Of a DNA stretch of 53,169 bases, positions 3,916 to 7,342 are shown piece by piece. Position 1 is the first letter of the stretch, and the number at the start of each line of letters is the position of its first letter. The notes beneath the pieces were generated by a model. The model was not told where the DNA came from, ran no database searches, and saw nothing but the letters and a program-made list of their open reading frames with translations. Both the position numbers and the translations under genes were made by a program. The stretch is from an uncultured Holophagaceae bacterium (GTDB lineage: Bacteria > Acidobacteriota > Holophagae > Holophagales > Holophagaceae), in NCBI GenBank assembly GCA_903863195.1, contig CAIPAY010000211.1, forward strand, positions 1 to 53,169, given 5' to 3'.

Positions 3916-6252
3916 CTAGAGCCACCCTGCAAGCATCTGCTCCAGCTCCAGGGCCGAGAAGGGCTTCTTGAGCACCCTGACATCGGGGAAGCGGCTCAGG
4001 ATCTGCGGGATCCGCTCGTCACTGAAGCCGGTGGCGAACAGCACGGGCTGGTGCGGCCGGAGGCGCCGGAGGCGCTCCAGGGTCTCGCTGCCGTCCATGC
4101 CCGGCATGCTGAGGTCGAGGACCACCAGATCGGGGTTGAGGTCGGCCTGGATCAGTTGCAGGGCCTCCAGGCCGCCCGCCGCGATCTGCACCTGGTGCCC
4201 CAGGATCTCCAGCAGCCGCTGGACCGCCGTGCGAATGAGCTCCTCGTCATCCACCAGGAGGATGCGCAGCGACTTGGGGGGCAGCATCTGGCTGGGCGCC
4301 GGGGAGGCCATGGGGGCCGCATCCTCTTCCACCGGTGGAAAGGTTAGCCGGACCTGCGTGCCCACCCCTTGCCGGCTCTGGAGGTCCACGGTGCCGCCAT
4401 GGGCCTTCATGGTGCCGTAGACCTGGGACAGGCCAAGGCCCGTGCCTTTGCCCAGGGCCTTGGTGGTGAAGAAGGGCTCCAGGGCCCGGTTGAGGGTCTC
4501 GGGGCTCATCCCCTCGCCGTTGTCCTCCACCGTGAGCTCCAGGTGCCGGTGGCCGATCCTGCGGGTGCGGAAGTGGATCCTGCCGCCCTGGGGCAGGGCA
4601 TCGCAGGCGTTCATGCAGACGTTCATCAGGGCGTTGCTCAGGGCGCTGCTCTCGCCGAAGATCGGCGGCAGGTCCGCTTCCAGGTCCAGCTCGAAGGCTA
4701 TCTTCTTGAGCGTGGTCCGCTCCAGGAGGTCCACCTCGCTCCGCACGAGCTCGTTGAGGTCCAGCTCAGTGGCCGACGCCAACTCCTTGCGGCTGAAGTC
4801 CCGGAGGTTGCGCACCAGGTCGCGACCCCGGGTGGCCGCCCGGAGCAGCAGGTCCGCATCCTTCAGGAGCTCGGGCTCGTCCCGGTGCCGCCCCTTGAGG
4901 ATCGAGCCCACGGCCATGATGGTGGAGAGCACGTTGTTCATGTCATGGGCGACCCCGCCCGCCAGCCGGCCCACACTCTCCATGCGCTGGAGGTGCTGGA
5001 CCTGGGCCTCGAAGGCGCCCCTCTCCTTCTCGATTCGGCTGCGCTCGGTGGTGTCGAAGAAGGTGACCACCGCCCCGACCACGACCCCCTCCTGATACTG
5101 GGGATAAGACCAGTACTCCACCGGCATGCAGGTGCCGTCGGCCCGCCAGAACACCTCGTCCCCGCTGTGGCTGCCCTTGCCCTCGGCGAGGGCCCGGAAG
5201 ATCCGGCAGGACGCCAGCGGGTGGGGCGACCCGTCCCGCAGGGAGTGGTGGATGAGCTGGTGCATGTTGTGGCCCACCAGGGCCGTGGCCTCCGCATAGC
5301 CGAGGTTCTCCAGGAGCGCCCGGTTGCAGAAGGTGCACTTGCCCTGCAGGTTGATGCCGAAGATCGCCTCGGTGGTGGAGTCCAGGACGCTGGCCAGGAG
5401 GGCCGTGCGCTGGGTGAGGCTCAGCTCGGCCTGGTGGCGCTGGGTGATGTCGATGGCGGTGCCGATGTAGCGGAGCAGGTTGCCCGTGGCATCCAGCACC
5501 GGATAGGCCCGGGACAGGAGCCAGCAGTCGGCGCCGTCGGGCCGGTTCACGCGCCACTCGAAGTCCAGCTCCGCCTTCTGCTCGACCGCGCAGGTCACGA
5601 GGGTGGTGACGCGCTGACGGTCGGAGGGATGGATCGCCTGGATCCAGGCTTCATGGGAAGGGGCCACGCTGCCCGGCTCCAGGCCGTAGAGGCGGAAGAG
5701 GTTGTCCGACCAGCTGTTCCGGTTCGACCCGAGGCTCCAGGTCCACCAGCCGATGGTCGCCAGGTTCTCGGTCATCTTCAGCAGCGCCTCCTCCTCCCGG
5801 AGGGCCATGGCCTTCTCCTGGTAGCGCTGCTTGAGGTCGCGGGTGAGCGTTGCCAGCTCATTGGAGGTGCCGCTGAGGACGTCCAGAGCCTCGGCGGTGG
5901 CCGGCAGGATGCGCTCGCCGATGAGGATGGACTGGCCCTGGTAGGGGAAGCAGTAGGCCTGGAGCGAGGTGCCGATGACCATGGGGTCCACCAGCTTCAG
6001 GTGGCTCGGATGCTGCTCAAAAGCCCCTGGATCCGCTTCCACGGGCTGGCCGTTCTGCCTCAGGACAAACCGGGAGAGGTGCTGTCCTTGCAGGGACTCC
6101 CGAGGCTGGTAGAGCCCCTGGAAGGCGGCATTGCACTCCTGGATTCGTCCCCTCTCATCCATGCGGACCAGGATGACCGATTTGGAGACCCGGGCCAGGA
6201 ACCCGGCCAGCAGGGAGACCAGGGGCGGATCGATCTCAGTCCAGCTCATCAC
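3916..6252 (-). CDS. PAS-domain hybrid histidine kinase, cytoplasmic, partner of the B12 sensor
   Basis: The 778-residue protein has no membrane helix or signal peptide. The domain order is PAS-like (about 25-115), coiled coil (about 130-160), PAS with PAC (about 165-270, ending in IGTAIDITQRH), PAS (about 285-400, ending FFDTTERSR), HisKA with phospho-acceptor His436 in GGVAHDMNN, HATPase (N box NACDALP, G1 DNGEGM, G2 GKGTGLGLS), and a C-terminal receiver with Asp713 and the KKP motif. Its start overlaps the end of the cobalamin-binding gene by 17 nt, so the two are almost certainly co-translated and probably work together. It is clearly related to the other hybrid kinase at 36946-40371. No DNA-binding output is encoded nearby, so the downstream target is unknown. 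Confidence 0.93.
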   Translation of the reverse strand: MMSWTEIDPPLVSLLAGFLARVSKSVILVRMDERGRIQECNAAFQGLYQPRESLQGQHLSRFVLRQNGQPVEADPGAFEQHPSHLKLVDPMVIGTSLQAYCFPYQGQSILIGERILPATAEALDVLSGTSNELATLTRDLKQRYQEKAMALREEEALLKMTENLATIGWWTWSLGSNRNSWSDNLFRLYGLEPGSVAPSHEAWIQAIHPSDRQRVTTLVTCAVEQKAELDFEWRVNRPDGADCWLLSRAYPVLDATGNLLRYIGTAIDITQRHQAELSLTQRTALLASVLDSTTEAIFGINLQGKCTFCNRALLENLGYAEATALVGHNMHQLIHHSLRDGSPHPLASCRIFRALAEGKGSHSGDEVFWRADGTCMPVEYWSYPQYQEGVVVGAVVTFFDTTERSRIEKERGAFEAQVQHLQRMESVGRLAGGVAHDMNNVLSTIMAVGSILKGRHRDEPELLKDADLLLRAATRGRDLVRNLRDFSRKELASATELDLNELVRSEVDLLERTTLKKIAFELDLEADLPPIFGESSALSNALMNVCMNACDALPQGGRIHFRTRRIGHRHLELTVEDNGEGMSPETLNRALEPFFTTKALGKGTGLGLSQVYGTMKAHGGTVDLQSRQGVGTQVRLTFPPVEEDAAPMASPAPSQMLPPKSLRILLVDDEELIRTAVQRLLEILGHQVQIAAGGLEALQLIQADLNPDLVVLDLSMPGMDGSETLERLRRLRPHQPVLFATGFSDERIPQILSRFPDVRVLKKPFSALELEQMLAGWL

Positions 6253-7342
6253 CGGCCTCGAACCAGGACTCTGCCAGCAGGCAGGCCCCGGCGGCGTCCC
6301 TGGCCTCCCCGTCCGCGCCGATGCTCGCAGCGAGCCCCGGGGTGTCCTGGAAGACCCGTCCCCCGACCATGATCCGGGGGGTCCAGGCGCCCGCGTACTG
6401 GCGGATCCTGGCGATGAGCTCGGCAGTGTTCCGCAGGTTGAAGGACATGGTCACCGAGAGGGCCAGCACGGTCGGGCGGAAGTCATCCAGGGTCGCGAGG
6501 AGCGCCTCGGAGGGGGTGTCAGCCCCGAGGAAGCGCGTGTGCCAGCCCCGGACCTCCAGCAGGTCCGAGATCATCCAGGCGCCGATCTGGTGGTGCTCGT
6601 TGGGGCTTGCGCTCACCACGCAGCGCTTCCGTGGATGGGTCGGAGACTCGATCTTGGCGAAGGCCTTCGACATCATCCGGATCACCAGGGATGAAGCCAT
6701 GTGCTCCTGGGCCGTGGTGATCCGGGCCTGCTCCCAGAGCCGCCCGATCTCCCGCATGGCGGGGTCCAGCATCTCCAGGTAGAAGCGCTCCAGATCCTGA
6801 GGCGCGGCCATGTAGTCCCGGGTGACGGCGTCCGTCCAGGTGGAGTCTCCCGTCACCAGTGACTCGACGAAGGCTGCCAGGACGCTGCCGTCCTGCGCAG
6901 GGCCTGCGGCGGACTCCTCCGGGCGGTTCGCGGCTTCGATGATGTCGTTGTGGTGGTCGAGCATCCAGTCGTAGACCGCCAGCAGGGGGGCGGCGGCCGA
7001 GTCGGGGATCTGCTCGGTGATGGCCCGCCGCCAGGCCCGCAGCTCGACGGGGAAGTAGTCCATGGAGACCCCGCGGGCGCCGTAGACCCGGTAGACCCAG
7101 GGCAGGGTCTTCACCAGCAGCTGCGTATTTCCCAAAAAGAAGACGTTGTCCATGAACTTGGCATGGTTCGCGTGGTTCTGCTGGATCAGGTCGAAGGGAT
7201 TGGGCCCGATCAGCTGGCCCAGTTGGGGGTGGTGGATGATCGCCTGGTCCACCGCCGCCGCCAGGAGCTCACGGTGCTCGTGATACGCCAGGCTGGAGGC
7301 CGCGGGGGGCATGCCTGGGCCTTCATGGGCACCGACCTGCAT
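6236..7342 (-). CDS. Cobalamin-binding sensor protein with Wx9EH (CarH-like) signature
   Basis: The 368-residue protein has three parts. Residues 1-150 are mostly helical and not recognised. Residues about 155-235 form a helical cap carrying W203 and, ten and eleven residues later, E213-H214; this is the W-x9-EH pattern of adenosylcobalamin photoreceptors of the CarH/LitR group. Residues about 238-365 are a Rossmann-like B12-binding domain whose loop has E249-x-H251-xx-G254, with His251 as likely lower cobalt ligand. Unlike CarH it has no MerR-type DNA-binding domain. The overlapping hybrid kinase gene suggests that the signal goes to phosphorelay. The first ATG is used here; an ATG at 7312 (residue 11) is also possible. 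A redox or B12-level sensor is an alternative to a light sensor. Confidence 0.85.
   Translation of the reverse strand: MQVGAHEGPGMPPAASSLAYHEHRELLAAAVDQAIIHHPQLGQLIGPNPFDLIQQNHANHAKFMDNVFFLGNTQLLVKTLPWVYRVYGARGVSMDYFPVELRAWRRAITEQIPDSAAAPLLAVYDWMLDHHNDIIEAANRPEESAAGPAQDGSVLAAFVESLVTGDSTWTDAVTRDYMAAPQDLERFYLEMLDPAMREIGRLWEQARITTAQEHMASSLVIRMMSKAFAKIESPTHPRKRCVVSASPNEHHQIGAWMISDLLEVRGWHTRFLGADTPSEALLATLDDFRPTVLALSVTMSFNLRNTAELIARIRQYAGAWTPRIMVGGRVFQDTPGLAASIGADGEARDAAGACLLAESWFEAGDELD

Follow-up and report, generated by a model that had tools for sequence, protein, structure and literature searches.

A predicted bilin-type globin joined to a CarH-like B12 domain, encoded beside a hybrid histidine kinase, in an uncultured Holophagaceae bacterium

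The window analysed here is a 53,169-nucleotide stretch of DNA (assembly GCA_903863195.1, contig CAIPAY010000211.1) from an uncultured Holophagaceae bacterium of the phylum Acidobacteriota, and our subject is a pair of overlapping genes on its minus strand, at 3916-7342. We propose, with moderate confidence, that the product of the upstream gene, in which a predicted globin of the bilin type is fused to a B12 domain of the CarH/photocobilin type, likely binds adenosylcobalamin, is likely switched by light, and would act in trans on the product of the overlapping gene, a hybrid histidine kinase. Together the two would make a two-part switch for light (or B12). The observations behind this proposal are the Pfam matches for the B12 domain and the kinase, the profile match and predicted fold of the globin, a set of invariant residues, the gene overlap, the joint occurrence of the two genes, and versions in which the parts are separate genes. 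Globins combined with B12 domains are already known (photocobilins, photoglobins). New here are the joint occurrence of the pair at a site flanked by secDF and a deacetylase gene, which in a close relative is cleanly empty; two genomes that carry B12 domain, kinase, globin, and kinase or receiver as separate genes in one run; and a heme oxygenase-globin fusion in the host genome, with the same fusion upstream of a B12-domain gene in two others.

The globin-B12 protein and its neighbouring kinase

The globin-B12 gene (6236-7342; this and all features below are on the minus strand unless stated) has an ATG start and encodes 368 amino acids, including a B12-binding_2 four-helix cap (residues 155-224, 6671-6880; PF02607, E 1.3e-12) and a B12-binding Rossmann domain (residues 240-353, 6284-6625; PF02310, E 2.7e-18). 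Both motifs on which an earlier note on this DNA had relied are present: the adenosyl-pocket motif W203-x9-E213-H214 (6701-6736), seen in the sequence and in the alignment and more fully G200-x2-W203-x9-E213-H214, and E249-x-H251-x2-G254 (6581-6598), in which H251 is the predicted lower cobalt ligand (SasPcob His108). They are also nearly invariant; in a 56-row alignment of the window protein and 55 sequences hand-picked for spread from 89 protein-search matches, G200, W203, E213, H214, H251 and G254 do not vary, and E249 is Glu in 55 rows. W203, E213-H214 and E249-x-H251 are the residues expected of a photocobilin B12 domain (W-x9-EH plus E/DxH). The light-responsive cobalamin-binding domain signature, given in the accessible text of PMC11796333 as GxxW, EH, GxxH and GxxxP, has three of its four elements here, as GRLW, EH and GADTP.

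With CarH (TtCarH, PDB 5C8A-5C8F) the protein shares the B12 domain fold and the adenosyl-pocket motif. It differs in having a globin in front; in having no MerR or HTH domain detectable by Pfam at E <= 0.1, which bears out the earlier statement that the CarH DNA-binding domain is missing; and in having Glu204 (Glu in 55/56 rows) in place of His132, the second His ligating the light state, such that the bis-His pair is absent. CarH is the best NCBIfam match, yet far below the cut-off. Close relatives (P0002-P0024) are 47-62% identical.

The 150-residue N-terminus, previously described as novel and helical, is instead predicted, from a profile match and a modelled fold, to belong to the bilin-binding lineage of globins (phycobiliprotein/photoglobin type; approximately residues 13-138, 6929-7306), as a relative of the domain that binds biliverdin in photocobilins. 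This globin was modelled separately because the fold search of the whole-protein model covered the B12 half only; model helix 73-89 has no His; we read it as the F helix, the place of the proximal His in heme globins, and the fold matches include heme globins. Given the predicted lineage of the N-terminus, the nearest solved relatives are photocobilins (SasPcob and AbDPcob; PDB 8J2W, 8J2X, 8J2Y; PMC10979010) rather than CarH, and the CarH-group affinity proposed earlier holds for the B12 domain only. W82 (7097-7099), aligned with SasPcob Trp296, which contacts the bilin D ring, is conserved in 56/56 alignment rows and in all of 92 globins compared, a set with hand-chosen loci from which matches shorter than 340 amino acids (P0078 among these) were left out. 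In the stretch N56-H57-A-N59-H60 (7163-7177), N56 aligns with the biliverdin-binding Asp270 of SasPcob, whose chain and paper numbers are 6 apart, as Trp61, Glu71 and His108 confirm; this residue is Asn in 76 of the 92 globins and Asp in 16. Residues 1-150 contain no Cys, and therefore any bilin would be held noncovalently.

Photocobilins likewise carry a B12 domain with W-x9-EH and E/DxH and a bilin-type globin in one chain, and are reported to regulate a separate enzyme through protein contact (both in the accessible text of PMC10979010). In the window protein, by comparison, the globin precedes the B12 domain rather than following it, Asn replaces the biliverdin Asp270, NxxH replaces GxxH, and the partner, encoded by an overlapping gene, is a hybrid histidine kinase. 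The swap alone is no novelty, because the existence of both domain orders is already mentioned in the literature (PMC10979010; PMC11796333).

The kinase gene (3916-6252) could start at a GTG, giving 778 amino acids, or at an ATG at 6249, giving 777. Its overlap with the globin-B12 gene is confirmed as 17 nt (6236-6252), or 14 nt with the ATG start, and by the same counting is also 17 nt in the three other carrier genomes. Pfam identifies two PAS domains (PF08447, residues 180-266, 5455-5715; PF13426, residues 295-403, 5044-5370), HisKA (4783-4971), HATPase_c (4333-4650) and a C-terminal receiver (3931-4263), and the phospho-acceptor His435 and the receiver Asp712 (ATG numbering) are conserved, as expected of a hybrid histidine kinase. 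Two of the three PAS domains claimed earlier were therefore confirmed; the supposed first one (approximately residues 1-130) has no Pfam model and lies within an N-terminal module (residues 1-165, 5755-6249) that gave five protein-search matches, the window's own counted. The kinase is likely soluble, as also suggested before, judging from its sequence, and we go no further than likely because the 19-residue hydropathy maximum (1.87, residues 10-28) is borderline. In carrier genome G048, the paired kinase (L043:7259-9244) has lost one PAS domain and retains an intact N-terminal module; a near-identical database form exists (P0091).

Distribution of the pair and of its parts

The globin-B12 protein was found, at E <= 1e-40, in four of 77 family genomes, all of one genus (G000, the host genome of the window; G017; G041; G048), and a kinase gene adjoins it in all four. 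SecDF was matched in 43 of the 47 genus genomes, and at the 30 loci examined the gene after secDF is a kinase in four, a deacetylase in 22, and neither within 1500 bases in the remaining four; the globin-B12 and kinase pair lies between secDF and the deacetylase gene at 4/30 loci. Genome G040 (85% complete, SecDF piece 98% identical) has a clean empty site of 181 bases, on whose flanks the match to the window ends at the secDF stop and resumes just inside the deacetylase gene. Both genes are present or absent together at this site. In comparisons of the window with the three other carriers, the B12 gene has dN/dS values of 0.13-0.16 and the kinase gene values of 0.22-0.27, and hence purifying selection acts on both. 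A terminator-like inverted repeat, read by eye (3868-3901, no strand), separates secDF from the kinase gene, and the G040 empty site holds a similar stretch. Elsewhere in the window, at 10143-14064, are genes that resemble, by eye only, those for ferredoxin, aldehyde ferredoxin oxidoreductase, an FAD oxidoreductase and a MoaD-like protein.

Conservation of the pair in relatives, a point raised in the earlier note, extends to all carriers of the genus, and kinases adjoin globin or B12 genes in some other lineages. Profile matches at the same threshold occur in 22 of 396 Acidobacteriota genomes, at 23 loci, to which we added G072 from 93 class genomes. Fourteen loci outside the genus include the globin, fused or as a separate gene, and a kinase gene adjoins at six of these (L046, with a 4-nt overlap, L048, L049, L050, L053 and L107). 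Kinases were sought at the 14 loci by BLAST with the window kinase (L044-L055) or with eight kinases (L099-L107), and by Pfam on chosen neighbours; the L048 kinase was overlooked by BLAST alone, so further kinases may have escaped. No adjoining kinase was detected at L045, L047, L052, L054, L055, L100 or L101, where not every neighbour was Pfam-scanned. At L044 a GGDEF gene adjoins the globin-B12 gene, and a protein resembling the window kinase, which we did not count, is encoded two genes away on the opposite strand. At two further loci (L051, L102), kinases adjoin genes for B12-domain proteins without a fused globin.

Two of the six loci with kinases have the parts split. At L053 (G202) the order is B12 domain, kinase, globin, and a receiver/PAS protein truncated where the contig ends; at L107 (G072) it is B12 domain, kinase, globin, hybrid kinase. 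Outside the genus, the split globins score best with the globin profile (E 4e-35 and 1.5e-32), and in a FastTree phylogeny they group together (0.96), beside fused Asn-type globins (0.82).

Four plasmid records covered at least 80% of the query. On an Azospirillum plasmid a kinase gene lies just downstream, past an overlapping hypothetical gene, and on Ilyobacter polytropus plasmid pILYOP01 (L134:5956-7999; Fusobacterium) an Asn-type globin-B12 gene overlaps a GGDEF gene by 20 nt. Neither a kinase nor a GGDEF gene adjoins in two Skermanella plasmid records, where an HWE kinase gene two genes off, on the opposite strand, was left uncounted.

Several neighbouring genes deserve mention in their own right. 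The L044 GGDEF gene (L044:6307-7605), 5 nt from the globin-B12 gene, also encodes an ABM domain, a fold that we take to include heme-degrading monooxygenases. Downstream of the globin-B12 gene and kinase gene at L046, Pfam identifies a KaiC-family protein (L046:9647-11152) and a receiver/PAS/GAF protein (11160-14000). The globin-B12 genes of L052, L054 and L055 are weak matches; RskA-type anti-sigma genes lie beside those of L052 and L054, an ECF sigma gene also lies beside that of L054, and a SpoIIE phosphatase gene is near that of L055.

A helix resembling N-E-L-x2-L-x-R-E-L follows the N-terminal part of the kinases at L046, L049, L050, L051, L053 and L107 and of the Ilyobacter GGDEF protein; a similar stretch stands at residues 122-145 of the window kinase. 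We considered a module shared by these partners for kinase docking and rejected it; hhalign aligned only 25 columns (probability 12%, E 0.0023).

Heme oxygenase and cofactor supply

Among the 47 genus genomes, heme oxygenase (PF01126) is encoded only in G000 and G017, both of which carry the pair. The G000 protein, of 421 amino acids, consists of a heme oxygenase and then a predicted second bilin-type globin domain: a profile of 13 Asp-type globins scored 20.2 bits against its C-terminus, compared with 4.2 for the best of 200 shuffles, although the profile was built after the heme oxygenase sequence had been seen, and its score is support rather than a blind test. The first globin profile, mostly of Asn type, scored -1.4 bits and detected no globin in the same C-terminus, and no second domain was reported by NCBIfam for the G000 protein or by Pfam for those of G135 and G258. 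The loci of all 21 heme oxygenase genomes among the 396 include four such fusions (G000, G017, G135 and G258), 417-430 amino acids long, at L016:778-2043 (G000, contig C38), L017:1477-2742, L051:6574-7866 and L118:1498-2751. A B12-domain gene comes immediately after the fusion gene in G135 and G258; in G135 it is followed in turn by a kinase gene (Pfam) and then a gene for a second kinase-like protein (BLAST), and in G258 the B12 match is weaker. From their gene order, these neighbourhoods would tie biliverdin supply, globin and B12 domain together.

Co-occurrence with heme oxygenase is found in 2/4 carriers versus 0/43 other genomes of the genus (Fisher 0.0056) and in 4/22 versus 17/374 genomes of the phylum (Fisher 0.023), with kinship among genomes making both sets of observations non-independent; at the phylum level, two of the four (G135 and G392) match the B12 part only, and G258 is counted among the 17. 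The association agrees with a report on Myxococcales, in which BBAG-2 globins, described as biliverdin-specific, occur together with B12-binding proteins and heme oxygenase (accessible text of PMC10151467). Unlike the window fusion, BBAG-2 systems consist of separate genes and include a bilin reductase (pre-2) (PMC10151467). The window globin, having no Cys, lacks the RGMC Cys of BBAG-2, the place of the motif being our reading, as BBAG-2 was not aligned. An adenosyltransferase is encoded in all four carriers, making cofactor supply plausible, and a photolyase-family gene in each of six genomes tested suggests that the hosts meet light.

Alternative explanations and proposed mechanism

Several observations weigh against a light-switched sensor acting on the kinase. 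NEHH, with Asn248, replaces the GxxH of the light signature, which both solved photocobilins have. The SasPcob-type biliverdin Asp270 is replaced by Asn56. This is not a defining trait: the published Asp-to-His change of AbDPcob leaves some biliverdin binding, at about 20% occupancy (accessible text of PMC10979010), such that Asn56 makes binding uncertain without excluding it. In keeping with that change, the N56 column pairs with the His of AbPcob, though the alignment concerned is not significant. Half of the carriers (G041 and G048) have the pair and no heme oxygenase, and Asn-type relatives occur in genera that we take to be anaerobes. A kinase is not adjacent at 8/14 globin loci outside the genus, which argues against pairing as a rule. 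Finally, a profile of seven partners, built for a shared docking module, ranked the paired kinase first in none of the four carriers (in G000 the single match lay elsewhere, at E 0.08; in G048 the paired kinase came last of three matches, at E 9.75; G041 and G017 gave none).

It is possible, though we think it rather unlikely, that the protein senses the form of cobalamin, adenosyl supply, or redox state or oxygen instead of light, with the globin a chromophore-free scaffold or relay as in RsbR. Arguing for light instead are the invariance of W203, E213, H214 and H251, residues with which CarH and photocobilins hold the cobalt and the photolabile adenosyl group, and the heme oxygenase-globin fusion, found only in G000 and G017 among the 47 genus genomes searched for heme oxygenase. 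It is less probable still that the two genes are mere neighbours and the globin-B12 protein targets something else. The loci just mentioned, the three of four plasmid loci without an adjacent kinase, and the variety of adjoining genes (kinase, GGDEF, sigma/anti-sigma) would fit this explanation; it is opposed by the 17-nt overlap in 4/4 carriers, the joint presence or absence at the site, and the G072 and G202 runs, where the globin gene has a kinase gene on one side and a gene for a hybrid kinase or receiver protein on the other. Moreover, since HATPase_c occurs at 32-95 places per genome in ten genomes, we roughly estimate chance adjacency at a few percent. The B12 input to a phosphorelay suggested in the earlier note is backed by adjacency and joint occurrence in the genus and by adjoining kinases in some other lineages. 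That the protein is the corrinoid methyl carrier of a methyltransferase seems very improbable: many relatives are named "methanogenic corrinoid protein MtbC1", and there are weak NCBIfam matches to MtbC/MtgC, far below cut-offs, but CarH matches best (itself far below cut-off), W-x9-EH is invariant, and the neighbours read are secDF, a deacetylase and a kinase, with no methyltransferase among them.

For a light-switched sensor acting on the kinase, we propose the following sequence of events. In the dark, adenosylcobalamin would be bound in a dimer; W203 would sit on its ribose, and E213/H214 would reach across. Green light would remove the adenosyl group by breaking the cobalt-carbon bond, the dimer interface would then change, and the kinase, bound directly, would alter its autophosphorylation and send phosphate to its receiver and onward. 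The globin may extend the response to red light through noncovalent biliverdin, which is the least certain step; in G000 and G017 the biliverdin could come from the heme oxygenase-globin fusion. More speculatively, and we regard this as doubtful, the parts may form a complete two-chromophore phosphorelay, in which the heme oxygenase-globin protein makes and hands over biliverdin, the globin-B12 fusion senses red and green light, and the hybrid kinase is switched in trans, with parts fused or encoded separately (B12, kinase, globin, kinase).

The word "kinase" is absent from the main text of PMC10979010, supplements lying outside this scope, and appears once, in the reference list, in the accessible text of PMC10151467. 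We found no kinase pairing for globin-B12 sensors in the literature searched, a scope that excluded the photoglobin paper and all supplements. Photoglobins, reportedly described by Schneider et al. in 2022, are said to be non-heme globins tied to B12 domains in signalling proteins, and a kinase pairing may already appear there.

The B12 light sensors known so far either are repressors (CarH) or carry fused enzyme domains (photocobilins). The heme oxygenase-globin fusion offers a direct handle on whether such globins carry bilin in these bacteria, and the two-chromophore phosphorelay, if true, would amount to a two-component system based on B12 and bilin. With a histidine kinase under the control of a globin-B12 sensor, B12 photochemistry would stand atop a phosphorelay, and the system would be a ready-made optogenetic part.

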